Shown here: one piece after another, positions 9,254-39,802 of the stretch
How the letters are laid out: each line of letters opens with the position of its first letter
Numbering within the stretch: the first letter of the stretch is position 1
From: a virus
Reading direction: 5' to 3' (one strand)
Virus record (IMG/VR): IMGVR_UViG_3300021368_001595
Coordinates: 1-49,151 of that record
DNA length: 49,151 nucleotides
Notes under the pieces: model-generated
What the model saw: the letters and a program-made list of their open reading frames with translations, nothing else
The model's database searches: none
What the model was told of the DNA's origin: nothing
Position numbers and translations under genes: made by a program

Positions 9254-9267
9254 AATTTTCTCCTTTA

Positions 9268-17849: not shown

Positions 17850-17871
17850 TAATTTGACGTGTGTCAAATTA
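17850..17871 (-). terminator. Candidate hairpin terminator after the radical SAM block
   Basis: A 9-base-pair perfect stem (TAATTTGAC / GTCAAATTA) with a 4-base loop. On the minus strand it begins at the TAA stop of the radical SAM gene and is followed by ATTTTG. The stem is AT-rich and the U tract short, so it may be a weak or factor-assisted terminator. Confidence 0.45.
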
Positions 17872-19005
17872 AGTGTTAATTATATCAACAATACAATTGT
17901 CTAATATATTGTAATTTTGATTTCTTTTCTTATCATAAAGTTTTGTCTTTCTTGCAAACTCTTTAAGCAAAAAACTATCTTTATATTCTTGTTTACATTT
18001 AGTAAGGTATTGTAATATGTGTTTATTGCTGTTTCTTTCTATTGCTAGATTAATAATGTCATTTGGTAGATTTTTTACATTTAATTCACTTTTTGCATAT
18101 GGTTTTATATAACAATCAACATGCAATTCTTTTTCATATCCTATTCTTTTCAAGTATTTTTCAATATTGGGTATATCAAATATGTTGTAAATATTAAGCA
18201 ATGTAGAAATATTCAATGTAAACGTAGGACTAGTATGTTTTATTAAATTACGTAAATTAATATCCAGGTCTTCCCATTTGCCAGGATATCTTATATATTC
18301 ATAAACTTTGTCAAACCCATCAATACTAACATTTATTGTACATTGGTCAAAACTAAGTAACTTATCTAACACATTTTGATTTATTTGCAATCCATTAGTA
18401 GTAATTTTTATACCAAGTCCTTTGTTGTAATTGTTTTCAATACACCAGTCTAACAATTTAATAAAATGTTTTTGATAAAAAGGTTCACCTCCAGTTGTTT
18501 TTAATTCTTTAAGTCCGTTTTTAATTAGTTCTTTACAATATTCTAATTTTTCATCTTCTTTATATTTTTGATTTTTAATAGGAACATTGTGTATACGATC
18601 TTGTTGCGGAATGTTTTTTAGTAAGGAATTTATTAAACTACTACTCAAAGGACTACACATTCTACATGCAAGGTTGCATGTATTATTAAATTTTATATCA
18701 GCTGTTAACACTGTTGTGGGTTCTAAATTATAGTTGACCTCAGTATATTTTTTAACAAACTTCTGTCTACTACTTTCAATGCCTACATCTTCTTGTCTAT
18801 AACAAACTTCGCATACTTTTGGTCTTATGTTGTCACGCATATATTTACGAGTTAGAATATGATCTTTAGAAAAAATTCCGTTTTTTATATCGTTTCCAGA
18901 CCAATTGCCTATATCACTTCTAAGATCAGTTCTACAACAAGGTACAGCTTTAGAACTTACTTTTACACAAAAATGATTCCACAACAACGGACATGCTGTT
19001 TCCAT
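17869..19005 (-). CDS. Radical SAM protein, N-terminal twitch type (1 of 13)
   Basis: A 378-residue protein from ATG 19005, which overlaps the preceding TGA; GTG 19008 is an unneeded longer start. N-terminal cysteines in CPLLWNHFC, PCC and CEVC (about 5-70) form the N-terminal half-SPASM (twitch) region that would hold an auxiliary FeS cluster. The radical SAM motif is CNLACRMC (110-117), followed by TGGEPF, the SAM amino-group motif. The family opens SAM reductively to a 5'-deoxyadenosyl radical, often to modify peptides. The substrate is unknown. The last gene of the radical SAM array; its stop lies within a hairpin. Confidence 0.88.
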   Translation of the reverse strand: METACPLLWNHFCVKVSSKAVPCCRTDLRSDIGNWSGNDIKNGIFSKDHILTRKYMRDNIRPKVCEVCYRQEDVGIESSRQKFVKKYTEVNYNLEPTTVLTADIKFNNTCNLACRMCSPLSSSLINSLLKNIPQQDRIHNVPIKNQKYKEDEKLEYCKELIKNGLKELKTTGGEPFYQKHFIKLLDWCIENNYNKGLGIKITTNGLQINQNVLDKLLSFDQCTINVSIDGFDKVYEYIRYPGKWEDLDINLRNLIKHTSPTFTLNISTLLNIYNIFDIPNIEKYLKRIGYEKELHVDCYIKPYAKSELNVKNLPNDIINLAIERNSNKHILQYLTKCKQEYKDSFLLKEFARKTKLYDKKRNQNYNILDNCIVDIINT

Positions 19006-20117
19006 CACACTTTCCTTTTTGGAATTTTGCTATCTGCTGAACTTACGCAACTTTTTGTAATACACGTTTTTGGCTCTTTAAATAGGTTAAAGCCCGTCTC
19101 GATGTTACCAAGGGGTGCATCATGGCAAGAATAGCTTCTTTTTACCGAACCGTCAGGCTCCCGTATTATTATTCCGCTAAAACCGGCGTTACATGCCCAT
19201 CCTTCAAAATTGTTGAAATTAAAGGCATTAAAGCGTTCTGCTTGGTCCATATACCATTTTTTACCTTTAGAGTCTTGTAATTCTACTTGCATGTGCCAAG
19301 GAACACTAGCATCATTTGTGCCGTTTATTCCTTTAGGTATTTCGAATGACGGTTTAGGTCTTTCCTGCCATTTACGTTTGTTTTCTGTGTAGGCTCGTTG
19401 TGGCATACCGTTCCACAGTCGTTCAAGCTGATCCTTAGTGTATCCATCAACCACCCTTGACGCAGTCGGATCCGATTGAGGCTTGAGCGTGACATTGATT
19501 CCTTGTTCGTGGAAGAACAGAGCATTTTCCCAATCTCTTTCAAACCATTCTGGAACCATAACTTGATTGATTGTAATTTGTACATCGTGTTCTTGACACA
19601 GGATTAATTTGTCTGCGAACTCCTGCATCTTCTCCTTTGTGTTTACATGTTCTGTGTGCAGACTTGCTGTAATACTTGCTCTATGGAAGGCCTTTGCATA
19701 CTCTACATAAGTTTTAAACCATTTCATATTCCTTGAACAGTTTGATGTCATGTGTATGCTTGTGTAATTTGTGTTTTCTACATCATCTGCTAGATGTTTT
19801 AGTATGTCCAAGTATCCAGGATGGAAAGTAGGCTCTCCTCCCGACAAGGAGAAGTGGAAAGAGTTGAAGCCGTTGAGTCTGGCTTGACGTTTAATTTCAT
19901 CCACTGTAAGCAAGCAGAGCTCGGTAGGACGGTGGTCTTTACGATCGCTTCTTGCGTAAGGCCAACAGTAGGAACATCTGTAGTTGCAGAATCTACCAAG
20001 TAACCATGATACTGTAAAAAGATCACGATAAAGCAGAGTCCGTTGACCAACACTGACAATATCATCAAATGGGATCTTAGTGAAATCATAATTGCTCCAT
20101 TTTAAATCTTCACTCAT
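19005..20117 (-). CDS. Radical SAM protein with SPASM-like C terminus (2 of 13)
   Basis: A 370-residue protein. The cluster motif is CNYRCSYC (44-51), with a GGEPT motif at 93-97. The C terminus has WACNAG, a DGSVKRSYSC segment and LGNI, an arrangement like SPASM proteins that use a formatted peptide or protein substrate. It lies directly behind an exact sigma70 promoter whose -10 ends 5 bases before this ATG, so the transcript would be nearly leaderless unless a downstream start is used. An AAGGTG 13 bases upstream overlaps the promoter spacer. Its codon and base use look slightly more GC-rich than its neighbours by eye. Confidence 0.88.
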   Translation of the reverse strand: MSEDLKWSNYDFTKIPFDDIVSVGQRTLLYRDLFTVSWLLGRFCNYRCSYCWPYARSDRKDHRPTELCLLTVDEIKRQARLNGFNSFHFSLSGGEPTFHPGYLDILKHLADDVENTNYTSIHMTSNCSRNMKWFKTYVEYAKAFHRASITASLHTEHVNTKEKMQEFADKLILCQEHDVQITINQVMVPEWFERDWENALFFHEQGINVTLKPQSDPTASRVVDGYTKDQLERLWNGMPQRAYTENKRKWQERPKPSFEIPKGINGTNDASVPWHMQVELQDSKGKKWYMDQAERFNAFNFNNFEGWACNAGFSGIIIREPDGSVKRSYSCHDAPLGNIETGFNLFKEPKTCITKSCVSSADSKIPKRKV

Positions 20118-20122
20118 GATAT

Positions 20123-20151
20123 ATTATAGCACCTTTATATAAACTTGTCAA
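20123..20151 (-). promoter_or_regulatory. Exact sigma70 consensus promoter
   Basis: On the minus strand TTGACA (20151-20146), a 17-base spacer and TATAAT (20128-20123) match the consensus at all 12 positions with ideal spacing. The -35 begins at the base right after the TAG stop of the upstream radical SAM gene. It would drive the genes at 20117-17869. The predicted start falls at about the A of the ATG. Confidence 0.75.
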
Positions 20152-21093
20152 CTATAGTTTATCTTTGATAAACGTATCTCTTTTATTTTGTTTACATACT
20201 TTTTCGCAACGTGGAATTCTATTATCAGATGTCCAACTATTTTGTATATCTGTCCAAACTTTTCCGTTTATTGCTTGTTCTAAACTTACATTTTTTAAAT
20301 TTATGTCAGACATATAATCGTTATCACGTAATATTTCTTCAAACCTATCTTTTGTTTTTCCGCTTACTGGGTATTCTAACATTTTTGCATTGAGATGACA
20401 ACAGGGTATGACATTACCCATATGGTTTACAAATATACGTTTTTGATTTGCATACTTACAACTTATGCAAGTAGATTCTTCTACTTCTATTTTTTTATGT
20501 TTTACGCCGCCTGTGTCTTTCCTATGGCTGATTATAGTTTTGAATGCTTTGAATCCTTCATCTTTGGCCATCTGCCTTGCTATTTCAAGCTGATGTTCGT
20601 TATGCTCAAAACTTATGAACTGCCAGTTTGCTTTTCCGCCAGCGGCAATAAATGCTCTATAGTTTTGCTGTACTTTTTTAAATTTAGAACCTTCTCTGTA
20701 TACTTCAGATAATTCGTCGCTTCCGTCTATTCCCCAAGTCACTCTATGACTGTTAGGTAATATTCCTGCAAGTTCAGTCCACCATTTTGTAGTACGCAAA
20801 CTACCATTTGTTGCTACATTTATATGTACGTCCCAATCAGCAAAATGTTTTACAATATCAAAAAATTGAGGATGGCTACAAGGTTCGTCAACACTACCGC
20901 AAAAATTAATAATTTTCATATTAGGAAACATCTGCTTTTGAAACTTTTCTTTAATAGTTTCAAAATCAAGATATGTTTTGTTCAATATTTGATCTGCGTA
21001 TTTAGATTCAACACGAAAACAGCCTTTACATTTTATATTGCAAAAACTTGTAAGTTCTATGTCGATCCATTCTAAGGTATCAGCTGTCCACAT
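20152..21093 (-). CDS. Radical SAM/SPASM protein, short N terminus (3 of 13)
   Basis: A 313-residue protein. The cluster motif CNIKCKGC begins at C18 and lies almost at the N terminus. In place of GGEP it has CGSVDEP (65-71). A SFEHNEHQ motif follows in the middle, shared with two other members. The C-terminal SPASM region has CISCKYAN, then GNVIPCC, then CEKVC near the end, enough cysteines for auxiliary clusters. SPASM enzymes often act on peptides. It is one of four members of this subtype here. Its TAG stop touches the sigma70 promoter. Confidence 0.88.
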   Translation of the reverse strand: MWTADTLEWIDIELTSFCNIKCKGCFRVESKYADQILNKTYLDFETIKEKFQKQMFPNMKIINFCGSVDEPCSHPQFFDIVKHFADWDVHINVATNGSLRTTKWWTELAGILPNSHRVTWGIDGSDELSEVYREGSKFKKVQQNYRAFIAAGGKANWQFISFEHNEHQLEIARQMAKDEGFKAFKTIISHRKDTGGVKHKKIEVEESTCISCKYANQKRIFVNHMGNVIPCCHLNAKMLEYPVSGKTKDRFEEILRDNDYMSDINLKNVSLEQAINGKVWTDIQNSWTSDNRIPRCEKVCKQNKRDTFIKDKL

Positions 21094-22492
21094 CTTTGAA
21101 AATATCTCTCATTTCTGGAAATGTATCTGCAAATTTTATTCCTCTTTGCTCGTCACAAAGTTCTAAAAATTCTTTCATTTCAGGCAGACGTACACTCCAA
21201 TCTTCACTATCCATAAAACTTAAAATTCCTTCTAAGCGTTTAATACCATATTCTGCATCTCTCCATGTATCGTAGTCAACTTTGCCTTTGTGCCAACTAG
21301 GAACACCTAGTTCCCAATTCTTTTCCCACCAAGGATACCATGATTCATATTTACGATGACATTCCTCTTTAAACCATTTAGGCAAAACTTTTACATTCAA
21401 ATGCCCAGGCCAATATACAAAGTGTTGGCTTATTCCACCTGCACCAAACGGCCACATATTAATTTTGCGGAAGCCTTGTTCTAGTTTCCATTGTATCAAA
21501 TCTGGAAGATAATATACATTAAGAGCTTGTACTGCACAAGCAATAGTAACTTCTACATTGTCAGTTGTTTCTTTATCCAGTCTATGAAATGTGTTTACCT
21601 GATTATCCCATTCGCTTGGATAACGTATGTAACTGTTCATTTCTTTGATGCTGTCAATGCTGTAATGGAACCTTACTAACTTGAAATGACTCCAAAGTTC
21701 AAATAAATCTTCACGCCATTCTACGCCATTTGAATTGTAGCGTAATTCTAGATCTTTGGCATATCCCATCTTGATAGCATGTTCAAGTATTTCGTAGTGT
21801 TCTTCAATAATAAGACTTTCGCCACCAGCAAAATAAATCTGTTGCATACTTGGCATCTGCTCATAGAACTGTTTCCAGAATGTTGGATTTTGTTTATGCC
21901 AGTTGTAACTACTACCGTTGGTACTACCTTTATCTTTCCATTGCATAATCTCTTTTAGTGATTCATTTTTTACCGCAGGAAAAATTGCTTTGTAATCTTT
22001 GATCCAACCCGAGCTGTCATGTGGACTACACATCACACATGCAAGTTGACATTTCGTTCCGAAACGTAAATCAATATAAGCTAAGTTTGGCGGCACACTA
22101 CCGTCTTCGTTTGTTTCTTCTAATATCTTGTTAAGATTAACACGCTTACTCCAATACCTAGTTTCCCATTGGCGTTTGCTACGATGTCCAGCCGCTTCCT
22201 CTTTGTAACACTTCAAACAACTAGGGGGCTGTTCGCCATTAAGCATTTGTAAGCGCACATTTTTCATGTAGTCACTGTTCCATGCTGTTTCAAAGTCACT
22301 CACGTTTAGATTGTTAGGTTTGCCGTCGTCGGTTTTGAGAATGCCTACTTGGCCGCCATGTTCTTTGTCATTTGTAGGACCAACCGAACTAGCATTTGCT
22401 GTACAGCATACACGCATACTGCCGTCTGGTCTTGTGCTGAGATGTACCCAGGGTAATAAGCAAAAAGTGTCTGAAGGATATTTATTGTTCAT
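21080..22492 (-). CDS. Radical SAM protein, N-terminal twitch type (4 of 13)
   Basis: A 470-residue protein, the longest of the array. The N terminus has FCLLPWVH, VCC and CLKC (about 10-95), the N-twitch cysteines. The radical SAM motif is CQLACVMC (C148, C152, C155), with AGGESL as the GGE motif. The extra length is in the C-terminal 150 residues, which are Trp- and charge-rich (WYPWWEKNW) without a cysteine cluster, and are likely the substrate-recognition part. It overlaps the gene at 20152-21093 by 14 bases. The function is not known. Confidence 0.88.
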   Translation of the reverse strand: MNNKYPSDTFCLLPWVHLSTRPDGSMRVCCTANASSVGPTNDKEHGGQVGILKTDDGKPNNLNVSDFETAWNSDYMKNVRLQMLNGEQPPSCLKCYKEEAAGHRSKRQWETRYWSKRVNLNKILEETNEDGSVPPNLAYIDLRFGTKCQLACVMCSPHDSSGWIKDYKAIFPAVKNESLKEIMQWKDKGSTNGSSYNWHKQNPTFWKQFYEQMPSMQQIYFAGGESLIIEEHYEILEHAIKMGYAKDLELRYNSNGVEWREDLFELWSHFKLVRFHYSIDSIKEMNSYIRYPSEWDNQVNTFHRLDKETTDNVEVTIACAVQALNVYYLPDLIQWKLEQGFRKINMWPFGAGGISQHFVYWPGHLNVKVLPKWFKEECHRKYESWYPWWEKNWELGVPSWHKGKVDYDTWRDAEYGIKRLEGILSFMDSEDWSVRLPEMKEFLELCDEQRGIKFADTFPEMRDIFKDVDS

Positions 22493-22505
22493 ACTGTACT
22501 TATTT

Positions 22506-23735
22506 TTAACATATGCCCTCTAATTGTTTATTGACTTGCATTAATTTTTCATCACGACTTCTTGTTTCTGATCCGCAATGCTTTCCACATCTTACTATCC
22601 GAGGAAATTTTTTATCAAAAGTTGTATTGTCAAAACTTTTGTTTAAATCATTTGTGAAAAATCTATGGTCCATAATTTCAGATAAAGTATGGAACTTTAC
22701 ATTGTTCCACTCAGCTTCATACTGATTCTCATAGTGAGACAACCGTTCATAGTCACGTCTATCGCTTATCCAGTCGTATTCTTTTGATTCATGAGGTTGT
22801 ATTGGATAATGATAAAATGTGCTGAAATAACAACACTGCCAAACCCTGCCTGTATAGTCTATACTAATTTGACGTTTATTAAACCATTCGCACTCGATCT
22901 CAGTATTGTTTATATTTTCTTTTACTGAACGTTTATACCAAGGTTTATTAGGATATTCGCCTCCTATTTTTTTATCTTCAGGTATTACTAGATCTGCATA
23001 CTGAGAAATTGTTTTGATATCTTCTTTGTTTATATTTTTCTTTTTTTGGCTCAAATTATCTATTTTTACTTTATTGGTATTATGGCGCAATCTAGATCTT
23101 CTAATTTTAAATTTATGAAATCCTAGCTGTTTAGCCATTGCTTTTGCTTTTTCTATTTGATGTTCGTTATGTTCAAATGCAATGAAACTCCAAACACATC
23201 TCACGCCACTTGCTATACATGTTTTAGCATTTTCTATAACTTTATCAAAATTAACTCCTCGTCTATACATTTGGTGTGTATCATCGTCAACACCATCTAA
23301 TGCAAAAACAATTACACTAGTTTTATCATATTTTTGTTTTATAATTTTGCACAAAGACGACCACCATTTTTCGTCATGTAATCCACCGTTTGTTTCACAC
23401 ATAAAACGTAATTTTTCTGTCAGTTTATTTTTTAATCTATGTTGGGAAAACTTGTTTACATTATCAGCAATTTTATCTACTATTGTAAGACAATCAGGAT
23501 GAAGTATAAAATCTCCGTATGTTCCTGTAAAGTTTATATAACGTGCATTTTGTGATACGTCTTTATCAAAAATATTGTCTACAAATACTTTATCTAATAA
23601 ACCTGCTGATCCAACTTCTATAAAAGGATTTATTTCATCTGTACCTTGAACAAATCTTTGGCAATCTAAACATCTGCTGTTGCAATTACTTGTTATTTCT
23701 AGATGTATTCCTTGGTCGTGCATATCAAATTGCAT
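22506..23735 (-). CDS. Radical SAM/SPASM protein (5 of 13)
   Basis: A 409-residue protein. ATG 23735 is chosen rather than 23753 because it places the cluster motif at C18, C22, C25 (CNSRCLDC), exactly as in the three other members of this subtype. The GGE motif is replaced by TGTYGDF, the most degenerate of the set. It retains SFIAFEHNEHQ. A Lys-rich insertion (about 205-260) precedes the SPASM region with CEWFN, TGRVWQCC and CGKHC. Overlap with the upstream gene is 11 bases. An enzyme with a weak SAM amino-group motif may bind SAM differently or have a changed role. Confidence 0.85.
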   Translation of the reverse strand: MQFDMHDQGIHLEITSNCNSRCLDCQRFVQGTDEINPFIEVGSAGLLDKVFVDNIFDKDVSQNARYINFTGTYGDFILHPDCLTIVDKIADNVNKFSQHRLKNKLTEKLRFMCETNGGLHDEKWWSSLCKIIKQKYDKTSVIVFALDGVDDDTHQMYRRGVNFDKVIENAKTCIASGVRCVWSFIAFEHNEHQIEKAKAMAKQLGFHKFKIRRSRLRHNTNKVKIDNLSQKKKNINKEDIKTISQYADLVIPEDKKIGGEYPNKPWYKRSVKENINNTEIECEWFNKRQISIDYTGRVWQCCYFSTFYHYPIQPHESKEYDWISDRRDYERLSHYENQYEAEWNNVKFHTLSEIMDHRFFTNDLNKSFDNTTFDKKFPRIVRCGKHCGSETRSRDEKLMQVNKQLEGIC

Positions 23736-24930
23736 AATTAACACCAGTAACATGATTAGACATTAATGATTTAAAAGTTTCTGCATCACTGCTTTTTGTT
23801 GCACATAATCCACACCTACAAATCGAATTAGGACAGATTATAGGTTCTAGTGTTCCTGATGCCAGTTGCTTTTCTACACTGTCTGTAAATTTTTTGTAAT
23901 CTGTTATAGATCCAACTGCTCCTCTTTGTTTTCCAATTTTAGCTTGACAGGTTTGATGGTGGAAAATTTGGTCAGTTTGACTTTCAAGATGTAAGAAAAA
24001 CCAATTGACTCCACAATACCAATCTAAAAATCTTGTATCTGAAACATATCTTTGTTGTTCTGTTGTGCCGCATTTTAATCCGCAACTAAGTTGATGATTA
24101 CTACAGCAATGCCTACCTTCTATAGTGTATGTTTTAGTTTTATCTGCCTGTAATTTTTTAAATGTTTCTCCTACATCTTTTTTCATTTTACGATGAAGTT
24201 TAACATCTTTGTCAACCTTTTCAACTTTTTTAGTTGTAGTTGTAGCAATTTTTGTTTTACTGCTTTTACTGTTTTTATTTTGCCAGTAGTTCTTGATCCA
24301 ACTGCTCTGCTCATAACTATAGGGTAAACCATTTATCACCCTTGGCATATATTTAACACCATGTTCTTCCATTACGTCTATAAAATCTAAACACTCTTTC
24401 CAATAATTATCATATGGATGCATCATCAAATTAACTTTAAAACTTTTTAATTCTTTCTTTAATAAAAGTGTATTTTCTCTAACTTTTTCTTTTATTTTTT
24501 CTTTGCTATCACAATGATAACTTAATGTTATACCTCTAAAGTTTTTTGCAAGTAACGGAATATGTTTTTGAGCGAAACTACCGTTGGTTGTGAGTATAGT
24601 ATATACATCATAATCAAAGTCTTGAAAACTTTCTTTGAGGTAAGAACTAAAGTCAACAAAACAAGGATTTGCTGTTGGTTCTCCGCCTGTAAGACTTAGG
24701 CTTGCTGTCTTTTCTGTTCTATATGGCATGATAATTTTTAAGTAATCTTTAACCAGGTCCACGCCTTTTATCAGTTCGTTAAAACTAGGAAAAGGACTTA
24801 CAAGATCGTGTCTATCATCGCCGCAGTAAGCACAATCAAAATTACAACGTTTTCCTGTATCCCAAGTTATGATAAATTGATTTGTTTTGACAGGATCAAT
24901 GCTATTATATGTTCCGTTTTCTCTATCCAT
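23725..24930 (-). CDS. Radical SAM protein with Cys-rich C-terminal region (6 of 13)
   Basis: A 401-residue protein. The cluster motif is CNFDCAYC (C29, C33, C36) and GGEPT lies at 82-86, a classical set. After the barrel comes a Lys/Thr-rich linker (about 215-260), then a Cys-rich C terminus (about 270-385): RHCC, SCGLKC, WYC, HQTC and a final CPNSICRCGLC. Ten cysteines there could hold one or two more FeS clusters or a zinc site. This layout differs from both the N-twitch and the short SPASM members. The nearest kin within the window is the gene at 19005-20117. The substrate is unknown. Confidence 0.87.
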   Translation of the reverse strand: MDRENGTYNSIDPVKTNQFIITWDTGKRCNFDCAYCGDDRHDLVSPFPSFNELIKGVDLVKDYLKIIMPYRTEKTASLSLTGGEPTANPCFVDFSSYLKESFQDFDYDVYTILTTNGSFAQKHIPLLAKNFRGITLSYHCDSKEKIKEKVRENTLLLKKELKSFKVNLMMHPYDNYWKECLDFIDVMEEHGVKYMPRVINGLPYSYEQSSWIKNYWQNKNSKSSKTKIATTTTKKVEKVDKDVKLHRKMKKDVGETFKKLQADKTKTYTIEGRHCCSNHQLSCGLKCGTTEQQRYVSDTRFLDWYCGVNWFFLHLESQTDQIFHHQTCQAKIGKQRGAVGSITDYKKFTDSVEKQLASGTLEPIICPNSICRCGLCATKSSDAETFKSLMSNHVTGVNYAI

Positions 24931-26164: not shown

Positions 26165-27533
26165 CAAAGTGGGCTCCTGGTCTAGATCCTTCAGTTACAT
26201 TTGTTGGATCATATCTATCAAAATATCTTTGTAGCATTGGTTCAATAGTTACTGTATCAGTTCCTCTGATTTTATTCAACGCTAGTTCTGCCCTCACAAA
26301 ATCATTTGCATATCTTACTTTGCGCTCATCTGTTTGTGTTTTATCAAGTTCACTGTGTAGCAAATCAAACCATTGTTGTTCGTCCTTGTTCATATCAAAC
26401 TCAACAATACACTCTTGCACTTGCTGTCTAATGTAATCCTTGTGGTCATTGTCTAACCAACTTACACTTAGGTACCAAGGATCAACAATAGGATTAAATG
26501 TTACACCATTATGTTTGTTCGGATACTTACGTGATCCTTCAAGGAACCATTCAACATTACGCTTTACTTGGAATGCACTTACAGGTTGGAATACATGCAT
26601 AATACCTGCCCACTTTAGGTTAGGTAATGTAAATATTTTGTCAAATACTTTTTGCTTTTTGTCCCATTTAGTACCGTCACGTAAAAATTCGTCTGTGGCT
26701 CCTACACCATCTACACTAATATTAAAACTTACTTCTTTGAACTGGGCTAATAAATCGTAAATCCTGCTAGGCAAACTTGTGCAATTTGTAATTTGGTGTA
26801 GCCTTACATTGCCAGCTTCTCCACTGTCTACAATTTTTTTCATAATATTGTAAACACGAGGATCAATGAGTGTTTCGCCGCCACTCATTTTCAAGCGAAA
26901 TACTTTACTAAAGTCTAAATTACTTACCACATCAAACTTAGGATCTTCATAATCTATTTGCTGTGCTTTACGCATTGCATTCTTACTTTGTGTAACCATA
27001 TCCCAATGACTCCAACCCTGTATTTCTGGGTTAGCAAGCACTTCTTGCTCAATTTGGTTACTCCAAAGGCTATTACAACTACGACATTTCAAGTTACACA
27101 GCTTACTAGGACGTAGATCAATATCCACAGGTTTTTCAAACTCAAGTGTACCCTTTTCAATATCCCAATGTATATCTGTAAAGCCTTCTTTAAGTTCTAG
27201 CTCGTAGCGTTTTATGTAATCTAATCTGTCGCTTTTATGATAGATACCTTCACTTTCCCAACGTCCGCACCACCATTCACAAGACTCTGGCATTTTACCA
27301 TCAAGAAAACTTTGACGAATTTCTTGCATTGTCTCGCCTTTCCAAAATTCTTCATGCTGATCTTTAAGACTAGATTCAGTATCCCATCGTCCAATCACAT
27401 GACTCATACAACAAAGTTTATATCCTCTGTTGTTTGCATTTATGTATGTGTGCATAAACGGTGCAGGACAGAATTTTTTGTTGGGAACGATGCTTTCTAA
27501 ACGTTCTGCTTCTTTTTTATCTATTTTAGCCAT
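26139..27533 (-). CDS. Radical SAM protein, N-terminal twitch type (8 of 13)
   Basis: A 464-residue protein. N-twitch cysteines are FCPAPF, LCC and SCEWWC (about 22-89); the last pair has an unusual Trp-rich spacer. The cluster motif is CNLKCRSC (C146, C150, C153) and SGGETL replaces the more usual GGEP. The C-terminal region is long and acidic, with a WFDLLHSELD segment, and lacks a SPASM cysteine set. It overlaps neighbours on both sides by 13 to 26 bases. The specific reaction cannot be inferred. Confidence 0.88.
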   Translation of the reverse strand: MAKIDKKEAERLESIVPNKKFCPAPFMHTYINANNRGYKLCCMSHVIGRWDTESSLKDQHEEFWKGETMQEIRQSFLDGKMPESCEWWCGRWESEGIYHKSDRLDYIKRYELELKEGFTDIHWDIEKGTLEFEKPVDIDLRPSKLCNLKCRSCNSLWSNQIEQEVLANPEIQGWSHWDMVTQSKNAMRKAQQIDYEDPKFDVVSNLDFSKVFRLKMSGGETLIDPRVYNIMKKIVDSGEAGNVRLHQITNCTSLPSRIYDLLAQFKEVSFNISVDGVGATDEFLRDGTKWDKKQKVFDKIFTLPNLKWAGIMHVFQPVSAFQVKRNVEWFLEGSRKYPNKHNGVTFNPIVDPWYLSVSWLDNDHKDYIRQQVQECIVEFDMNKDEQQWFDLLHSELDKTQTDERKVRYANDFVRAELALNKIRGTDTVTIEPMLQRYFDRYDPTNVTEGSRPGAHFDGKPKPTV

Positions 27534-28768
27534 TCAGTTAATTCCACACATGATAGATCATCGAAAGATTGACTTCGTTGTTCATCAAGTGTTGTTGACA
27601 TATATTTAAGCTGATCACGTTTTTTATATTTTACGTCTGGTTCAATCTTTTTTGCCATCTCAACATAACGTTCAAATTCTTTAACTTGCCTACAGTCAGT
27701 ATTGTGCCATTTTGTTAGAGTACATTCTAATAAACTATTAGGTAAAAACTTTGCGGCAAGTTCACTGTCTTTAGGACGTAGATTTAAATTAAAGTCAATA
27801 CGGGGTATGTAATTTTTCTTTAACAACCAAGGATACTTTTGTGTATAGGATTTTAATGTAGTATACAGTTCTGGATTATTGTGCCAATTATAGGCTGTTA
27901 CTACTGTACTTGTTCTAACTCTAAAATGAGGATTTTCATACATTCTATGTTCATCTGCAAAAGCAAGAAACTCCATAAATCTTTCTTGCCACTTACTCCA
28001 TGTAAACGGATACCGAATATAGTCGTAGGTTTCATTGCATCCGTCAACACTTACATTTAGGTCGACACCCTTAAAATGTTTTAAACGTTCTAACACTGCA
28101 CGAACAAACTTAGTTCCATTTGTAGTTATTAACAATCTAATATTTTTAGCAAAGTCATTGTCAATTGCATAATCAAGAACATCAAGAAATTCTTTGCTTA
28201 TAAAAGGCTCACCACCTGTGACTTTTAGTACTTCAATTGTGTCTAACAATTCAATCACATATTCTTTACGTTTTTGGCTTACAGTTGCAGTGTCTTTCTG
28301 CTTGTAGTTTATAAAAGATTTCCAATGCTCAGGCATAGGCTTTTCATTATCTCTGTACCAATCTATAGCTGAAACAAGTTGATTACTACTACTTGGGTCA
28401 CACATTCTACAAGCAAGATTACAAGTGTTATCAAAACGCAAATCTAAATATTTAATTTGTTCATCTGCGTCAGAATTAACAAACTCTTTAAATTTATCTA
28501 CAGTGTAGGTGTGTCTAAAACTTAGTCCGTCGTTGCGCTCTCTTGCATAACAAACTTCGCAAGCAGGATGTTCTTTTCCTTGTTGCATGTGTAACCTTAT
28601 CTCGTCCATGCTTGTGCTTTCAAATGCTTGTTTTATACTGTTAGCATCATCTTTAAAATTAAAGTAACTTTCGCTGTTACAACAAGGACGATAACCGCCG
28701 CCTACACTTCCGTTTACGTGTATCCAAGGAAGTATACAAAATGTTTTACTATTTGTTGGTTGCTTCAT
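27521..28768 (-). CDS. Radical SAM protein, N-terminal twitch type (9 of 13)
   Basis: A 415-residue protein, a clean example of the N-twitch subtype. It has FCILPWIH, RPCC and CEVC (about 10-73), the cluster motif CNLACRMC (C116, C120, C123), TGGEPF and then ITTNGT. The resemblance to the protein at 17869-19005 is close around the motifs (CNLACRMCxPxSS, TGGEPF, YIRYP), suggesting duplication. The FCxLPWxH opening is also shared with 21080-22492. It overlaps the upstream stop by ATGA. Substrate unknown. Confidence 0.9.
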   Translation of the reverse strand: MKQPTNSKTFCILPWIHVNGSVGGGYRPCCNSESYFNFKDDANSIKQAFESTSMDEIRLHMQQGKEHPACEVCYARERNDGLSFRHTYTVDKFKEFVNSDADEQIKYLDLRFDNTCNLACRMCDPSSSNQLVSAIDWYRDNEKPMPEHWKSFINYKQKDTATVSQKRKEYVIELLDTIEVLKVTGGEPFISKEFLDVLDYAIDNDFAKNIRLLITTNGTKFVRAVLERLKHFKGVDLNVSVDGCNETYDYIRYPFTWSKWQERFMEFLAFADEHRMYENPHFRVRTSTVVTAYNWHNNPELYTTLKSYTQKYPWLLKKNYIPRIDFNLNLRPKDSELAAKFLPNSLLECTLTKWHNTDCRQVKEFERYVEMAKKIEPDVKYKKRDQLKYMSTTLDEQRSQSFDDLSCVELTEWLK

Positions 28769-29805
28769 CTTATCTTCTCTAATGTTTTTTTGTATTTTTT
28801 TAACATTTTAAGAGCAGATAAGTCTTCATGCTCTAAGTGAAGTTGTAAATATCTTGTCACAAATTGATTTTTTATTTTCTTAATAAACTTTTCTTTCTTG
28901 TTTTTTGGCAATATTTGTATATCTAAATAATAAGGCTGTTGTAAAATATCAAAACGTGTGGGAAAATACTTTCTACTAAATTCTAAATAATTATTAATAT
29001 TATGTATATTTAAATTATGAACTACAAAATGAAAAGATATTTCAATATTAGTGTGTTTTGCTTGAAAATCTTTCCACCATTTTATATTTTCGGTTACTTT
29101 TTTCCAATTAGTTCCATACCTTACAAATTCTGCGGTTTTGCCTTCTCCATCTAAACTTATATCTACATTTAATTTTTTGCATTTGACAAATATATTTTGC
29201 CATTCTTTATTAGGCTTTACACTACAATTTGTAACAATTTGTAAATTTATATTTTCTAATAATAAACTTTGTAAAAATTTGATATTCCTTGGCTCCATAA
29301 AAGGTTCTCCTCCAAGAATTTTTACCATCTCTACTTTCTTTAATTCTTGGGGAACAAAATCAAAGTCTGTATATACAACTTGCTTTTTTGGTTTGGCTTT
29401 ATTTGCTCCTATTGAATTTATAGCATCAATATCTTTCCACCAAGTGGTGCTGTATGCCGCATCACATGTAACACAGGCAAAATTGCAACTATTACTTAAC
29501 CCAACTTCTATATACCTTATTTCAGGATTATTTTTGTTTATGTTACTAAAGTCTTGGTTAGCTGTTTGTCTATAACTTTTCCTGCCTAACTTTTCATCTC
29601 TATAACATTTTTCACAACCTTTGATATATTCTCCTTTTAACATTTTATTCCTTAGCTCTGTCATCTTAGAACCATAAAAATAATCACGAGGAGATATCTT
29701 ATCTATATATTCTTTATCAGAAAACCTACAGCAAGGTTTGTTCCTGCCACCTACATTTGTACAACTGTGGATAAAAGGTAACGGACAATAAGTTTTGTTT
29801 ACCAT
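28765..29805 (-). CDS. Radical SAM protein, N-terminal twitch type (10 of 13)
   Basis: A 346-residue protein, the shortest N-twitch member. It has YCPLPFIH, KPCC and CEKC (about 6-67), the cluster motif CNFACVTC (C107, C111, C114) and LGGEPF. The C-terminal tail is short and Lys-rich. A FVRYGTNW segment matches the (Y/F)(I/V)R(Y/S)xxxW motif found in most N-twitch members here, so it is a family feature near the barrel end. It overlaps the upstream gene by 7 bases. Function unknown. Confidence 0.88.
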   Translation of the reverse strand: MVNKTYCPLPFIHSCTNVGGRNKPCCRFSDKEYIDKISPRDYFYGSKMTELRNKMLKGEYIKGCEKCYRDEKLGRKSYRQTANQDFSNINKNNPEIRYIEVGLSNSCNFACVTCDAAYSTTWWKDIDAINSIGANKAKPKKQVVYTDFDFVPQELKKVEMVKILGGEPFMEPRNIKFLQSLLLENINLQIVTNCSVKPNKEWQNIFVKCKKLNVDISLDGEGKTAEFVRYGTNWKKVTENIKWWKDFQAKHTNIEISFHFVVHNLNIHNINNYLEFSRKYFPTRFDILQQPYYLDIQILPKNKKEKFIKKIKNQFVTRYLQLHLEHEDLSALKMLKKYKKTLEKIR

Positions 29806-31013
29806 ACCATTTCCTCAACTGACTTTCCAAAGACTTTAGAAAAATTTTGATTTTTAATAGTGTCAATTCTATGTGTATAATATATAAATGCATCTACATC
29901 TTTTTTAGATTCTCTTGAATTTTGTAAAGCATGTATAATCATATCTGCCATTTTAATTGCACCTTGACGTTGTAAACTTTTCTCCTGCGAAAATAGTTTT
30001 TTCCTAATTTTTCCAACATGTTTTATAAGATTGTTTTTTTGATTGTATAAAACATCTATGCCTAAATATGTAGGATATTGAACAAAACTATGATGGAGTC
30101 TGTCTACCGGTAATAATAACATATCGTTAATAATATTTTCTAAATCTAAAATTTGATAAGGTGTTATTGTGTTAGTAGCTTCTAAAATTGTTTTTTTGTT
30201 TTTTTTCTTAAACGTTTGAATATTTGTGATTATATTCTCATATATCCCGTTCCTAAAATAATTATAAAGATTACTACCTCCATCTACACTAATTTTTATT
30301 TGTGATCTACCAAAGTTATTCATATATTCGCTTAGTTTTTCATAATCAACAGGAGTGTTAAAATTGCTAACAATATTCACCCGAATTTTATTTCTGTTTG
30401 GGTGTGCTTGTATGGCTTCTAAAAATTGCCAAAATTGTTTTTGATATAAAGGTTCGCCACCTCCGACATCTATTCTTTTAAGGTTAGGACAGTTTTGTAT
30501 CAAATCAGTTACAAGATCATTTACTTGTTCTTTAGTCCATGATTGATTAGGCCACTGCCTTACTAAATTCTTTATGTCATGTGTGTAATCATCTGGCACA
30601 CGTTCTACTCGTTTTAAAATACTGTTCCATTTACTTGAATAATCAGGAGCACAGTGTCTACAACTAAGGTTACATGCATTACTAAATCTTATTTCTATGT
30701 ATTCAATATTACGTTGTTTAATTTTATTTTTACTATTCAACTTCGTAACCATTTTTTGATTTTGATTACTTTTTTGTCTATAACTTTCTTGTCCCCTTGA
30801 TTCTTGATCTTGACAACTTTTACAATGCTCTGGCCAGACACCTTTTGCAAGTGATTGTCTTATTGATCTAAAATTATCATTATTGATAAATTTGCTAGGA
30901 GCTACACCTTCAGATATGTTTGCTAGAGAGCCTGTGCCTCTAGGACACATTGTAATTCTATCGTCAGGTTTAAAGTTTACGGCATGAAGTGCAAAATAAC
31001 AAGGCAATTTCAT
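29799..31013 (-). CDS. Radical SAM protein, N-terminal twitch type, divergent (11 of 13)
   Basis: A 404-residue protein. The N-twitch region is altered: PCYFALHAV then TMCPRG in place of the usual PCC, and CKSC (about 5-67). The cluster motif CNLSCRHC (C114, C118, C121) and GGGEPL are intact. Loss of one cysteine of the PCC pair suggests a changed auxiliary cluster. The rest follows the family, with ISVDGG and YFRNG. Its stop overlaps the start of the next radical SAM gene, and its start overlaps the SGNH-like gene by 4 bases. Confidence 0.86.
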   Translation of the reverse strand: MKLPCYFALHAVNFKPDDRITMCPRGTGSLANISEGVAPSKFINNDNFRSIRQSLAKGVWPEHCKSCQDQESRGQESYRQKSNQNQKMVTKLNSKNKIKQRNIEYIEIRFSNACNLSCRHCAPDYSSKWNSILKRVERVPDDYTHDIKNLVRQWPNQSWTKEQVNDLVTDLIQNCPNLKRIDVGGGEPLYQKQFWQFLEAIQAHPNRNKIRVNIVSNFNTPVDYEKLSEYMNNFGRSQIKISVDGGSNLYNYFRNGIYENIITNIQTFKKKNKKTILEATNTITPYQILDLENIINDMLLLPVDRLHHSFVQYPTYLGIDVLYNQKNNLIKHVGKIRKKLFSQEKSLQRQGAIKMADMIIHALQNSRESKKDVDAFIYYTHRIDTIKNQNFSKVFGKSVEEMVW

Positions 31014-31765
31014 TTTATATTCCCTATGTGATTATATAAAAATTTTGCTAATTCAGAGTGTCCTTCTTCTAACGGGTGGTTATCAGGGCCAATTGAGTGA
31101 TTCTTATCTTGACACCATTCTAAGATTCCTTGTTCTCCTAGTGGCCATATATTTTTATTCAGATCAATACATCCGTATGTGTCTATTATTTCTTTTGTAA
31201 TATGATTTGGATACCTTTTGTTTCTGCATTTTTCTATCGTGCAATTAATATCATCAAACGTATGACGATTCATTGTTAACATAACGTAAGGAATATTGTA
31301 ACTTTTCAATAACATTTGTGTATCTAATATATTGTTCATAGTATAAAATGCACTGCAATGTTGAGAGAAATAAATTTGATGTTTGGCAAGATGTTTGGTA
31401 GCATCATTAGGAAGTTCACTCATCCTTCTATCTACCCATTTCGCCATAGATTTTTCCTTCATAAACCTGGATGGCATAAGCGGAATATAGCCGGTATTAT
31501 ATTCGTTTGTTGGCCAATCTTTATTATATAATTCCCATCTACTAGTCGAACTCCATTGAATGACAGCTATCTTGACTTTGTCTTTATTTTTTATTATACT
31601 TCTAAGTGTAGTTCTTGCTATTCTTGCATTACTGGAACCTCCCATAGCATCGTTAAGATGACTAGGATATCCTAGAAGTTGTGTAAGGATATTACTATAT
31701 CTACTCTGTCTTTTTTGTTGTAATTCATGTCCATCAGTATAACTGCATCCGTTTGCATATAACAT
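31010..31765 (-). CDS. SGNH-hydrolase-like protein inside the radical SAM array
   Basis: A 251-residue protein. ATG 31765 is chosen because it overlaps the preceding TAA as TAATG, has AGGA 7 bases upstream, and puts the nucleophile motif at the very start (LYANGCSYTDG, S8), as in SGNH hydrolases. Near the end DNHP (D228, H230) fits the catalytic Asp/His block. A longer frame from 31843 would add 26 residues inside the radical SAM gene. The expected activity is ester hydrolysis or acyl transfer on a glycan or lipid. It is the only gene interrupting the thirteen radical SAM genes. Confidence 0.65.
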   Translation of the reverse strand: MLYANGCSYTDGHELQQKRQSRYSNILTQLLGYPSHLNDAMGGSSNARIARTTLRSIIKNKDKVKIAVIQWSSTSRWELYNKDWPTNEYNTGYIPLMPSRFMKEKSMAKWVDRRMSELPNDATKHLAKHQIYFSQHCSAFYTMNNILDTQMLLKSYNIPYVMLTMNRHTFDDINCTIEKCRNKRYPNHITKEIIDTYGCIDLNKNIWPLGEQGILEWCQDKNHSIGPDNHPLEEGHSELAKFLYNHIGNIK

Positions 31766-32823
31766 TATAATTCCTGCATTCCTATGTGCTTGCCTATAGG
31801 TATACTTTTCTTTGAGCATTGTTTTATACATGTAGACAAGCACCCATTCTCAAAAGAATATTTTTCACTCCAACTATTGACTAAGGCATCTGAATAATAT
31901 TCACCTGCTATTATATCATCTAAGTTGTATTTGTGAAGACTGTTAAAACCTGCTCCGTATTTTAAAAAAACTTTATTTTGCATCTCAGTATAATAGGTGT
32001 ATCCTCTTGTTAAAGGATTTGATACAAAGCAACACGGCCAAATTGCACCGTTATAATCTAAAAACATTTTCTTTTCTTGTCGGAAGTGACAATCTATATC
32101 AATTTCGTTACCGTAGCCTGCAACCAAATTATCAATACTAGATATATCTAATCTTTTACTAGCTCTATTTGGTACAGTTTTAATTCTGTTACGAAAAGCC
32201 ATTGCATTTACTATACCATTTTCACTGTATGTAGATCTATCTCTTCTAAGTACAAAACGTTTCATGCCTATTTTTTTTGCAATTTTTTTACAACGCTTAA
32301 CATCTTTTTTGTTCCAAGGAAATTCTAACATTTGCCATAGCGCAGATCCTCCTGCTTTTATAAAAATTTCTGCATGACGTATTATATCATTCCAATTTTC
32401 TATACCACGATACAAATAATGATTTTCTTGCATTCCGTCAATACTAAATCTAACCATATGTTGCGGATGCCTACGCAATTTCTCAGCAAGCTCAATGTAA
32501 AATTTATTACTACGCAAACTTCCGTTTGTGTGTATGCTTACAGTGCATTGAGGATTGTATGTATAGATGGTGTCTAGTATATCTAAAAAATATTTATGAG
32601 CTAAGGGTTCATCTACTGTGCCGCAAAATTCAATTTCTTTAATTTGTCTTCCTATATCTGTATCAAATATATTTTTGAAAACTTCTGTAGGTAAGAATTT
32701 AGTTCCTTCTTGTTTAAATAAAAATTTTGCATTAGGTGCAATCCTTACACATCCTTGACAATCTGCATTGCAAAAATTAGATATCTCTACCTGTAATACA
32801 TCAATCTGTGTCAAATACTTCAT
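31765..32823 (-). CDS. Radical SAM/SPASM protein (12 of 13)
   Basis: A 352-residue protein with CNADCQGC at C18, C22, C25. In place of GGEP it has CGTVDEP, like the gene at 20152-21093 (CGSVDEP). At the position where three relatives have HNEHQ it has EFPWNKKD, so it lost that motif while keeping the flanking helix. The SPASM region has CHFRQ, GAIWPCC and CLSTC with CSKK. It is the second gene in the order of transcription of the array, translated by overlap with its upstream partner. Confidence 0.87.
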   Translation of the reverse strand: MKYLTQIDVLQVEISNFCNADCQGCVRIAPNAKFLFKQEGTKFLPTEVFKNIFDTDIGRQIKEIEFCGTVDEPLAHKYFLDILDTIYTYNPQCTVSIHTNGSLRSNKFYIELAEKLRRHPQHMVRFSIDGMQENHYLYRGIENWNDIIRHAEIFIKAGGSALWQMLEFPWNKKDVKRCKKIAKKIGMKRFVLRRDRSTYSENGIVNAMAFRNRIKTVPNRASKRLDISSIDNLVAGYGNEIDIDCHFRQEKKMFLDYNGAIWPCCFVSNPLTRGYTYYTEMQNKVFLKYGAGFNSLHKYNLDDIIAGEYYSDALVNSWSEKYSFENGCLSTCIKQCSKKSIPIGKHIGMQEL

Positions 32824-33902
32824 TTGAATTGTTCTGCAAATGGATCAAATTCGCTTCCGCATTTTTGAGCGCAAACTCCTAATTTTCCTTTAGCAATGCT
32901 TTCTTTGTTCCAACTATCTGATATGCTGTTAATTAATTTTCCATTAACTACTGTTTTAATGTCGTTATCAATTATATTTATACCCTGTTTTCCTCCTGCA
33001 AAATCTATATGATCCCAAATTTGTTCAACACGAGGATCATTATGCCACCATTTATACATTCGTCCAGCTGTCCAACAACATGGCATCAAAAGTCCTTCGG
33101 CAGTGACAAAAATACTACCTTGTTTTGCTACCTTACAAGTTACACTACATTTGTCTAGATAATTGGCCATACTACCGTAAGATTTTTCAATCTCTTTTTG
33201 TTTAAGCAATGCAAGATTTTGATTTTGTTCTTGTGTTGGTTTTTGTAGTTTTTGTGTATCTGACCCTTTGCGATTTACAGCTTGATGTTCATTTTTTGGT
33301 TTAATATCAGTTGTAATAAATCTGCCTGATTTCTTCTTTATAAACTTTTCACATCCCCATTCATTTGCAAGTGCTTCTGCTTGTTCAACTTGATGTTCGT
33401 TGTGCTGAAATATTAAATAATCCCATCGAGCTCTACCTCCGGCATCAATAAATGCTCGCATGTTGCGTTCTACATTGTCCCATAGAACATTCTGCCTGTA
33501 CAAATGATTAGTGTCCCTAAGGCCGTCCACGCTGAAAATAACAGCACCCATCCTGCCAAAAACTTGGGCCAGTTCACGCCACCATGCCTCATCTTTTGCT
33601 CCTGCATTTGTATTCATACTAAGCCACATGTTAGGATTATGTTTTCTAAAATAACGAAAAACTTCAAGTGTATCTCGCGCTATTATAGGGTCTCCTAGGT
33701 TACCACACATATACATTGTTTTTAATTGTTTTATAAAAGAAGGTTTAAATATCTTAACGCAATCTTCGTGAGACAATTCTGCATTTGTAATATGAGGGTT
33801 GTCTGCACCTCCATTCATATTACGATCACACATAGGACATGCGGCTTGACAACGTTGGGTAATTTCTAAATGTACTTCTTTAATATCTTCGTATCTATAC
33901 AT
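32820..33902 (-). CDS. Radical SAM/SPASM protein (13 of 13, first transcribed)
   Basis: A 360-residue protein with CQAACPMC at C18, C22, C25. The GGE motif is replaced by CGNLGDP. HNEHQ is present (LIFQHNEHQ). A Gln/Lys-rich insertion (about 200-245) precedes the SPASM cysteines CSVTC, GLLMPCC and CAQKC. It is the first radical SAM gene transcribed from the minus-strand unit that begins at 39749. The CX3CX2C spacing is intact in all 13 members, so none looks dead at the cluster site. Confidence 0.87.
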   Translation of the reverse strand: MYRYEDIKEVHLEITQRCQAACPMCDRNMNGGADNPHITNAELSHEDCVKIFKPSFIKQLKTMYMCGNLGDPIIARDTLEVFRYFRKHNPNMWLSMNTNAGAKDEAWWRELAQVFGRMGAVIFSVDGLRDTNHLYRQNVLWDNVERNMRAFIDAGGRARWDYLIFQHNEHQVEQAEALANEWGCEKFIKKKSGRFITTDIKPKNEHQAVNRKGSDTQKLQKPTQEQNQNLALLKQKEIEKSYGSMANYLDKCSVTCKVAKQGSIFVTAEGLLMPCCWTAGRMYKWWHNDPRVEQIWDHIDFAGGKQGINIIDNDIKTVVNGKLINSISDSWNKESIAKGKLGVCAQKCGSEFDPFAEQFK

Positions 33903-34602
33903 ATTTCATATCTCTTAGAATTACTGGCCACAATTCCTTCCAAGTTTCTTTAGTAAAATGAGAGCCGTCTATTGTAAAAGTTTTATAATCTTTTTCATTA
34001 TGTTTATCACATACATAATTTCGTAAATCTACCTTTAAAACAAATGACATAGGTTTAGTTAACTTTTTGAAGTAAGGATAATCAAATACATCTTTAAAGC
34101 CGTTTACTGACACCCAATTCACTACATGCCCTTGATTTTTTAAATAACCGTCTATTATCGAGCACTTACATAGTATATCATCAATTTCTAATCTTTCATT
34201 TGAAAAAACTTTAACTTTGCTAAGTGTACGAATTGCATTAGCTCCTCCAATAACTTTCTTTTTTCCGCTCCGTAATTGATCATCTATTGCTAACCAGTTG
34301 CCCATATCCTGAGTTTTGCTATAATAAAAAGAATAATCTTTTACATTAAATTCTTTTTTGACAAAGTCTCCGTAATGATAATTGTCTTCATTTATCCATT
34401 CATGATACCTACCATTGCAAGGTAGTTCGATAAGCCAAGTGTATTTGGATTGTTTATGCCTACTTACAAATTTGGCTATTCTTAAAAAATATGTATCTAT
34501 GCCATATCCGCTCATTGAAATATTATGTTTAAAATATAAATGTGCTTGTGAATTAAATTTAGGGGTAAAATGACTTGTCCCTATAAGTACGTTAGTGTTC
34601 AT
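33895..34602 (-). CDS. Possible SGNH-like protein
   Basis: A 235-residue protein. The opening NVLIGTSHF (about 4-12) is in the place of an SGNH nucleophile block, with Ser in GTSH. The C-terminal DGSHF (D212, H215) fits the Asp-x-x-His block seen in the two other SGNH-like proteins of the window. The centre (about 55-90) has ELPCNGR and Tyr-rich segments. The family call is tentative, because the first block lacks the usual second Gly. The stop overlaps the first radical SAM start by 8 bases, and the start overlaps the upstream stop as ATGA. Confidence 0.5.
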   Translation of the reverse strand: MNTNVLIGTSHFTPKFNSQAHLYFKHNISMSGYGIDTYFLRIAKFVSRHKQSKYTWLIELPCNGRYHEWINEDNYHYGDFVKKEFNVKDYSFYYSKTQDMGNWLAIDDQLRSGKKKVIGGANAIRTLSKVKVFSNERLEIDDILCKCSIIDGYLKNQGHVVNWVSVNGFKDVFDYPYFKKLTKPMSFVLKVDLRNYVCDKHNEKDYKTFTIDGSHFTKETWKELWPVILRDMKYV

Positions 34603-39773: not shown

Positions 39774-39802
39774 ATTATACTATAAAATCAACTAATTGTC
39801 AA
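39774..39802 (-). promoter_or_regulatory. Exact sigma70 consensus promoter
   Basis: On the minus strand TTGACA (39802-39797), 17 bases, then TATAAT (39779-39774) match the consensus at all 12 positions. It begins three bases after the TAA stop of the virion gene at 39806. The predicted start near 39767 leaves an 18-base leader containing GAGG before the ATG at 39749. It would drive the glycosyltransferase and radical SAM genes downstream. Confidence 0.85.

Follow-up and report, generated by a model that had tools for sequence, protein, structure and literature searches.

The window analysed here, IMG/VR virus record IMGVR_UViG_3300021368_001595 at its full length of 49,151 bases, carries an array of thirteen radical S-adenosylmethionine (rSAM) enzyme genes. 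Four of the thirteen are conserved in related viruses, and three of these (rM, rD, and rB) lie in fixed order behind a gene encoding two glycosyltransferase (GT) domains and a methyltransferase (MT) and a second gene encoding a 73-residue protein. Since the one near-identical contig found in a scan with rI (L001) belongs to a record of 76,956 bases, the window is a fragment. Translation of its open reading frames (ORFs) confirmed the layout described in an earlier note made from the sequence alone, namely thirteen intact rSAM genes that share one strand and are interrupted only by a single SGNH-like gene. The CX3CX2C motif is present in 13 of the 54 translated ORFs, all on the minus strand between 17,869 and 33,902; the encoded proteins are 313–470 residues long, the genes cover 15.3 kb combined in overlapping or near-abutting frames, and the widest intergenic gap within the array is 34 nt (20118–20151). 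We named the rSAM genes rA to rM by rising coordinate. From the highest to the lowest coordinate, the array and its neighbors read as follows.

39417–39749, minus strand: p39417, small protein that opens the unit; no PHROG match
38639–39427, minus strand: gt38639, glycosyltransferase-like; clusters with gt37912, no Pfam match
37912–38652, minus strand: gt37912, glycosyltransferase-like; weak Mannosyl_trans3 match of 17.7 bits, below the cut-off of 22
37431–37931, minus strand: p37431, ORF translation
34807–37428, minus strand: GT34807, with GT-A-like domain 1 (residues 1–310), GT-A-like domain 2 (319–540), and a class I methyltransferase (about 680–873)
34599–34820, minus strand: p34599, conserved 73-residue protein with three predicted helices
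33895–34602, minus strand: p33895, matched in 0 of 156 related viral loci and found in the near-identical contig L001
32820–33902, minus strand: rM, SPASM-like rSAM, conserved core
31765–32823, minus strand: rL, SPASM-like rSAM, variable cassette
31010–31843, minus strand: SGNH/DUF6071-like hydrolase or acyltransferase, variable
29799–31013, minus strand: rK, N-twitch rSAM, variable cassette
28765–29805, minus strand: rJ, N-twitch rSAM, variable cassette
27521–28768, minus strand: rI, N-twitch rSAM, variable cassette
26139–27533, minus strand: rH, N-twitch rSAM, variable cassette
24923–26167, minus strand: rG, N-twitch rSAM, variable cassette
23725–24930, minus strand: rF, classical GGEPT rSAM, variable cassette
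22506–23753, minus strand: rE, SPASM-like rSAM, variable cassette
21080–22492, minus strand: rD, N-twitch rSAM, conserved core
20152–21093, minus strand: rC, SPASM rSAM, semi-conserved (24 of 156 viral loci)
19005–20117, minus strand: rB, classical rSAM with a conserved C-terminal Cys, conserved core
17869–19008, minus strand: rA, N-twitch rSAM, variable cassette
17029–17790, minus strand: ox17029, putative oxygenase by eye, no Pfam match; after rB in some relatives
16338–17027, minus strand: ox16338, putative oxygenase by eye, no Pfam match

To establish how far this arrangement recurs, we scanned viral contigs with a SPASM profile (at least 554 encoding stretches among at least 600 that matched; 80 kept) and with a profile of rD orthologues (at least 596 among at least 600; 80 kept, giving 76 new loci). 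The resulting 156 viral loci, some on contigs fetched twice, collapsed into 86 non-redundant groups at 95% core-protein identity. Genes were called in them with a simple ORF caller of our own, and orthologues were accepted at ≥50% identity over 70% of the length. At this threshold rM was recovered in 147 loci, rD in 127, rB in 51, and rC in 24; because loci entered the set through likeness to rM or rD, the rM and rD frequencies are those of anchors and not of a population, and the rB count is lowered by the many loci that end before the rB position. Neither rB, p34599, nor gene order played any part in the choice. Across the 86 groups, p34599 precedes rM in 51 of 51 cases, rM precedes rD in 57 of 58, rD precedes rB in 37 of 37, and rM precedes rB in 29 of 29, with every ordered pair among these four genes on the same strand. 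The position of rC floats (before rD in 5 of 12 groups, after it in 7, and before rB in 10 of 10). The remaining nine rSAM genes of the window have orthologues in only 0–2 of the 156 loci each. Other rSAM genes lie in the intervals between core genes: the rM–rD interval holds 0–8 genes, 104 of 161 with the CX3CX2C motif (none in 9 of 58 groups), and 113 of 203 genes between rD and rB carry it. The nine non-core enzymes look like fast-replaced cassettes. A single contig, L126, retains the order SGNH-rK-rJ-rI-rH-rG-rF-rE-rD at 31–88% identity (35–88% from rK to rD); this retention, together with the scarcity of these genes elsewhere, indicates that trains of cassettes are inherited for a while and then replaced.

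These results divide the expectations of the earlier note, which had looked for recurrence of the block with its GT and SGNH neighbors and named scattered genes without conserved set or order as the contrary outcome. The GT/MT gene, the 73-residue protein, and rM, rD, and rB do recur in fixed order, so scattering does not describe the core subset; the nine other rSAM genes form no conserved set, and the SGNH neighbor was found in just 2 of 86 groups. The note expected one or a few such genes in a phage, but among its relatives the window is not unusual: all 28 related viral records that were searched over their full length have 4–20 Radical_SAM matches, and a published T4-like genome contains 12 such genes (PMC5332604). 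No close relative turned up in the phage records: a megablast search with the array found no match among 50,697 of them, and protein searches of the same records returned hits that were all below 30% identity (three for rI, two for rD, one each for rM and GT34807, and none for rB or p34599), the nearest for rM being one stretch 24.5% identical in Pelagibacter phage Mosig. When eight viral records were searched for gp23, it scored above the cut-off in G004, G012, and G014 and weakly in G017, with none in the window (G000, a fragment), G001, G010, or G016.

The division of the array into seven N-terminal twitch, four SPASM-like, and two GGEPT-type enzymes, also proposed in the earlier note, holds. 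Seven of the thirteen proteins exceed the 170-bit cut-off of the NCBIfam model NF033640 (N_Twi_rSAM), with 238–426 bits (rA 240, rD 426, rG 242, rH 242, rI 262, rJ 257, and rK 238), while the other six score below the cut-off or are unlisted. The SPASM four are defined by a cysteine alignment in which rM C256, C275, C276, C344, and C348 are invariant across rC, rE, rL, and rM; among rC, rE, and rL the Pfam SPASM profile matches rC only, and it also matches the N-terminus of rD. Inspection by eye shows a changed GGE motif in all four (GSVDEP, GTYGDF, GTVDEP, and GNLGDP). The classical GGEPT type comprises rB and rF, with an extra conserved C-terminal Cys in rB. All seven proteins scanned with Pfam PF04055 (rA, rB, rC, rD, rE, rF, and rL) exceed the Radical_SAM gathering score; so do 11 of the 13 rSAM matches in the longer record that is near-identical to the window, and the two below it are the counterparts of rD and rH, both strong N_Twi_rSAM members. 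Searches of solved structures with rD, rM, and rB profiles returned only weak matches to the rSAM core (SkfB; NifB; an unnamed rSAM, a sulfatase maturase, and viperin). The SGNH-like gene matches DUF6071 marginally (27.6 bits, cut-off 27), with GCSYT and DNHP blocks recognized by eye.

Comparison with L001 shows that the array is maintained. All thirteen rSAM genes have the same length in both contigs, with ratios of non-synonymous to synonymous divergence (dN/dS) of 0.032–0.209, and are thus under purifying selection; on these grounds the array is not decaying, and decay or misassembly (dN/dS at most 0.21) can be ruled out. Synonymous divergence itself ranges along the compared stretch (17869–37428) from 0.027 in rK to 0.70 in rD, a spread that suggests mosaic exchange or recombination between close phages. 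Within the window, the nearest paralogues share 25–30% identity over at least 150 residues, and since none exceeds 30%, the array is not the outcome of recent tandem duplication.

Upstream of the array, the three modules of GT34807 occur as separate genes in many relatives. Its AlphaFold2 model (mean predicted local distance difference test score, pLDDT, 81.1; predicted TM-score 0.45) has the chondroitin polymerase K4CP as a Foldseek match (E 9e-6), which suggests two GT-A domains as in that enzyme; this is a whole-model alignment of a multi-domain chain with TM-scores of 0.12–0.19. The methyltransferase module aligns with NodS (Z 14.7, root-mean-square deviation 2.8, 165 residues); this domain fills the structural alignment, so the calls of the GT domains rest on Foldseek. 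The 73-residue p34599 has 15 invariant residues across 32 relatives and is predicted to form three helices (pLDDT 89.1). A fold search of the PDB gave no convincing match for it (best E 3.4), and a PDB sequence search returned short matches, mainly to designed proteins. It was seen in phage or phage-like contigs only and was not detected in 22 of the 80 rM-anchored viral loci, some of them truncated.

Gene neighborhoods of the relatives add a recurrent set of accessory enzymes. The most common is a QueC-like ATP-pyrophosphatase, which 40 of the 86 groups carry (25.4 bits against the Pfam QueC cut-off of 22), followed by a short-chain dehydrogenase/reductase (SDR)-like protein in 21 (by eye), a carbamoyltransferase in 18, and a pyridoxal-phosphate (PLP) decarboxylase-like family in 18 (weak Pfam match of 15.8 bits, cut-off 27). 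An example of the QueC-like gene lies at L069:11724-12437; its product may make amides or nitriles. Some islands also hold genes of sugar type (UDP-sugar dehydrogenase, SIS, epimerase, cytidylyltransferase, and carbamoyltransferase). The labels amidinotransferase, SDR, GT-MT (cluster 23), sulfotransferase, ox17029, and ox16338 were assigned by eye and have no Pfam support. Among the 80 rM-anchored loci, homologs of gt38639/gt37912 occur in 25, of p39417 in 20, and of p39806 in 18. PHROG tail fibre matches at 40766 and 44229 adjoin the array; with these and its turnover of cassettes, the array resembles T4-like host recognition clusters, which lie with tail fibres in a hypervariable island.

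Two perfect promoters mark the unit in the window.

39774–39802, minus strand: sigma-70 promoter TTGACA-17-TATAAT, 12/12 positions, early type, in the gap before p39417
20123–20151, minus strand: sigma-70 promoter TTGACA-17-TATAAT, 12/12 positions, before rB, filling the largest gap of the array

From the p39417 promoter the unit runs through gt38639, gt37912, and GT34807 into the array. In T4-like phages, sigma-70 promoters are early, and the motif ATAAATA marks late ones. Counting one gene per non-redundant group and accepting matches at ≥11 of 12 positions, we found sigma-70 promoters before p39417 in 11 of 19 groups, before rB in 16 of 39, and before GT domain 2 in 22 of 56, where shuffled sequences would give 0.03–0.10. 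They are rare before rM (4 of 74), rD (3 of 69), p34599 (0 of 55), and the variable rSAM genes (1 of 373), as well as within rSAM genes (3 of 1,650 stretches). The rB promoter has an extended -10 and ends 5 nt ahead of the ATG; the -10-to-start spacing is 5 nt in 17 of 20 promoter-bearing rB copies (some loci redundant), which predicts a leaderless mRNA, and the rB transcript is probably of this kind. On the fibre side, ATAAATA precedes fib40766 in 4 of 4 groups (shuffles 0.24) and p39806 in 5 of 14 (shuffles 0.49), and in the window it stands before p39806, fib40766, and p46345. On these motifs, the array looks to be expressed early.

The core is not confined to viruses. A scan of genomes with rD gave 20 loci, of which ten were taken as bacterial (L092–L100 and L102, on contigs of 19–937 kb); nine of these come from Bdellovibrionota groups, many members of which prey on other bacteria, and L096 is titled "bacterium" only. 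L091 and L104–L109 were left out of this count, L106 being a 7-kb Bdellovibrionales contig with rD only. Three loci from metagenome-assembled genomes (MAGs), L090, L101, and L103, are probable phage contigs because p34599 is present and they are placed among phage rows; L103 and L104 sit on gp23-bearing contigs, and the rD-carrying MAG contigs G042:C3 and G043:C1 are gp23-positive. All ten bacterial loci have rD and rB, and nine of them have rM at 37–47% identity, the rM-like genes of L096 being 31% identical; eight have GT/MT modules in the neighborhood. At the thresholds used, 143 genomes of the Bdellovibrionia, the class of the L097 genome, yielded rD in 13, rM in 17, and rB in 15. All 13 rD genomes also have rM and rB, and in 11 of them the trio lies on one contig within 7 kb; partial sets are found in G118 (rM and rB without rD), G117 (rB alone), and G176, G095, and G090 (rM-like alone, the last two weaker). 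Two copies of rD occur in G149 and G150, and in G039:C25 a second rD lies about 6 kb from the first, on a long branch of the rD tree (L100_mag12). A T4-like prophage origin of the bacterial trio was rejected, as gp23 was found in none of the 10 bacterial genomes tested and the contigs measure 19–937 kb; this verdict covers prophages of the T4-like type.

The variable part of the array has bacterial counterparts as well. Eleven Bdellovibrionia genomes hold 6–20 N_Twi_rSAM genes, some of them arrayed (G032 C1 745,513–774,880), and the fetched bacterial arrays share families with those of the phages, including the PLP, carbamoyltransferase, QueC-like, amidinotransferase-like, and GT-methyltransferase families. 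When 223 N-twitch proteins are placed in one tree (a quick FastTree reconstruction with long branches), phage and bacterial labels switch 32 times, at least 19 of them forced by supported branches, and this pattern points to a shared pool rather than one transfer. The rD tree was midpoint-rooted, so that the direction of transfer is not readable from its rooting. In two Bdellovibrionia genomes, L099 (12853–14487) and L102 (12727–14748), the genes beside the trio encode a large, Cys-rich protein that resembles prepilins and a lipoprotein-like product common to both loci, each recognized by eye; these flanking proteins are possible substrates.

Taken together, our tentative reading, to which we give somewhat less than an even chance, is a modular system in which radical chemistry tailors a glycan or glycoconjugate; its product would be made early and placed on the surface of the host or on some other target there. 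Its conserved chassis would consist of the double GT-A glycosyltransferase and the methyltransferase (fused or adjacent), the 73-residue protein in phages, and rM, rD, and rB, three enzymes of different layouts held in fixed order in phages; the nine other rSAM enzymes would be interchangeable cassettes forming the variable part. The glycosyltransferases would build or extend the glycan or glycoconjugate, the core rSAM enzymes would introduce a common modification, and each cassette would add a lineage-specific change at carbons that are otherwise unreactive (epimerization, deoxygenation, cross-linking, or similar), to which the QueC-like, carbamoyltransferase, PLP, and amidinotransferase-like enzymes of relatives might attach further groups. 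A sugar polymer or protein of the surface is the probable target of the array's enzymes. On the host, the product could serve receptor masking or superinfection exclusion, and competition between phages could drive its diversity. We infer a role in glycan chemistry from the kinds of domains present, from accessory genes of sugar type, and from the proximity of tail fibres; a target on the host surface or elsewhere in the host is favored because the units start at host-type sigma-70 promoters while late motifs precede several of the adjoining fibre genes. The multi-enzyme modification pathway put forward in the earlier note remains the best explanation, whereas its suggestion of virion proteins as the target is weakened by these early-type promoters beside late-type fibre genes. 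In its boldest form, which we consider doubtful, the reading extends to a portable biosynthetic system of a new class, a chassis of three rSAM enzymes and the double-GT-methyltransferase with plug-in cassettes that would give every lineage a radical-made surface chemistry of its own, used by phages for early rewriting of the envelope, with Bdellovibrionota sharing both the chassis and the cassette pool.

Several observations pull the other way. GT34807 matches no Pfam family, the TM-scores of its K4CP match are low, and sugar-nucleotide type genes occur in only 4–7 of 86 groups each. In the Bdellovibrionota loci, the trio is variable in both order and strand, p34599 was not found, and 2 of the 10 bacterial loci have no GT/MT module near the trio. 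Nor is the split between early and late motifs clean: the fibre-side genes are carried by 4–14 groups only, fib42310 and fib44229 of the window have no ATAAATA, and the motif is enriched before variable rSAM genes (28 of 373 against 11.3 expected) and other genes (59 of 591 against 22.2), so some late units are likely. The array also directly follows fibre genes, which fits modification of the virion too, and early enzymes could act on late proteins. Under that alternative, tail-fibre or other virion proteins or their glycans would be modified, each cassette at its own site, to tune adsorption. The unit follows the fibre genes, homologs of gt38639/gt37912, p39417, and p39806 recur near rM, tail fibre PHROGs adjoin the array, and published host recognition clusters mix fibres with rSAM cassettes (PMC7029224); set against this are the early-type promoters of the array versus the late motifs at several fibre-side genes, the presence of the trio in bacteria without gp23, and several loci whose fetched stretch shows no fibre gene next to the core. 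On balance we think virion modification rather unlikely.

The small size of p34599 and its constant place ahead of rM raise the alternative of a peptide natural product, in which it would be the precursor of a ribosomally synthesized and post-translationally modified peptide and the rSAM enzymes its maturases, the product acting on the host or on competitors; SPASM and twitch enzymes do often modify peptides (PMC11002830). Yet conservation extends over most of p34599 and leaves no variable core; the protein has no conserved Cys, is predicted to be folded, and never exceeds one copy per locus despite the many rSAM genes. Its non-detection in the Bdellovibrionota loci and in some rM-anchored viral loci, part of them truncated, speaks against such a precursor, and no small ORF shared near the bacterial trio was found among 58 small ORFs of the ten loci, except in the near-duplicate pair L093/L095; this makes a peptide product quite improbable. 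Nucleotide chemistry of an antiviral-like kind (viperin-type products or deazaguanine) directed against competing phages would draw on the frequent QueC-like partner and on weak pVip matches of rB, rC, rF, and rD (25–42 bits). Those matches span the common rSAM core only, and the best score in the window against the viperin model NF038283 is 39 bits for rB, compared with a cut-off of 180, leaving this explanation very little probability. Slimmer still are the chances of an iron–sulfur metabolism set, by which phage enzymes would exploit or support iron–sulfur use in the host, as has been proposed for T4-like genomes with many rSAM genes. The 183-kb T4-like genome mentioned above does combine 12 rSAM genes with an A-type carrier, cas4, grx, and paaD (PMC5332604), but the A-type carrier family was matched in 2 of 30 viral records (many of them fragments), and the fixed core with its GT/MT and QueC-like partners would be left unexplained.

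T4-like ocean phages rich in rSAM genes are already known. The genome just cited, TARA_ERS488813_N000010 (Nishimura 2017), comes from a T4-like phage of the ocean and, like the window, has about a dozen rSAM genes, which were read as related to iron–sulfur clusters; in the sections available, its account describes neither an order of the array nor a core trio, and mentions no link to GT/MT genes, no promoters, and no counterpart in bacteria (PMC5332604). The host recognition cluster of pelagimyophages (Zaragoza-Solas 2020) is a hypervariable island between VrlC and gp14, where fibres and glycosyltransferases occur together with rSAM cassettes that are gained and lost, and the available part of that paper mentions rSAM genes as added cassettes only (PMC7029224); enrichment of rSAM genes has also been reported in Tasman Sea phages (PMC7150976). 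The NF033640 model, to which seven of the thirteen enzymes belong, describes a protein family and not a system, and its name carries no function. SynChlorMet and other multi-rSAM cassettes likewise place several rSAM genes in one operon. The window scores at most 41 bits against the 400 required by the SynChlorMet models ScmE/ScmF. Among the matches listed in open-access PMC literature, the ordered core, the promoters, the link of GT-MT and p34599, and the Bdellovibrionota counterpart were not found. If our reading is right, a group of uncultivated phages harbors a dense set of rSAM enzymes built from a core and exchangeable parts, whose chemistry could be dissected by comparing neighbors one cassette apart, and phages and Bdellovibrionota would be linked through a common enzyme pool; what has passed as a matter of auxiliary genes would become a defined system with named core genes and a prediction of when they are expressed.

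Away from the array, the window carries genes of a tripartite tricarboxylate transporter at 8210–10704 (TctC-like by eye and TctA-like at 319 bits), here in a phage; TctC/TctA-like genes also lie near the core in relatives L028, L037, L042, L053, L058, and L085. A class IV aminotransferase is split into two ORFs, with its N-terminal part at 13848–14357 and its C-terminal part at 13518–13835; it adjoins a short AMP-binding gene, and the split reflects a frameshift or a sequencing error.

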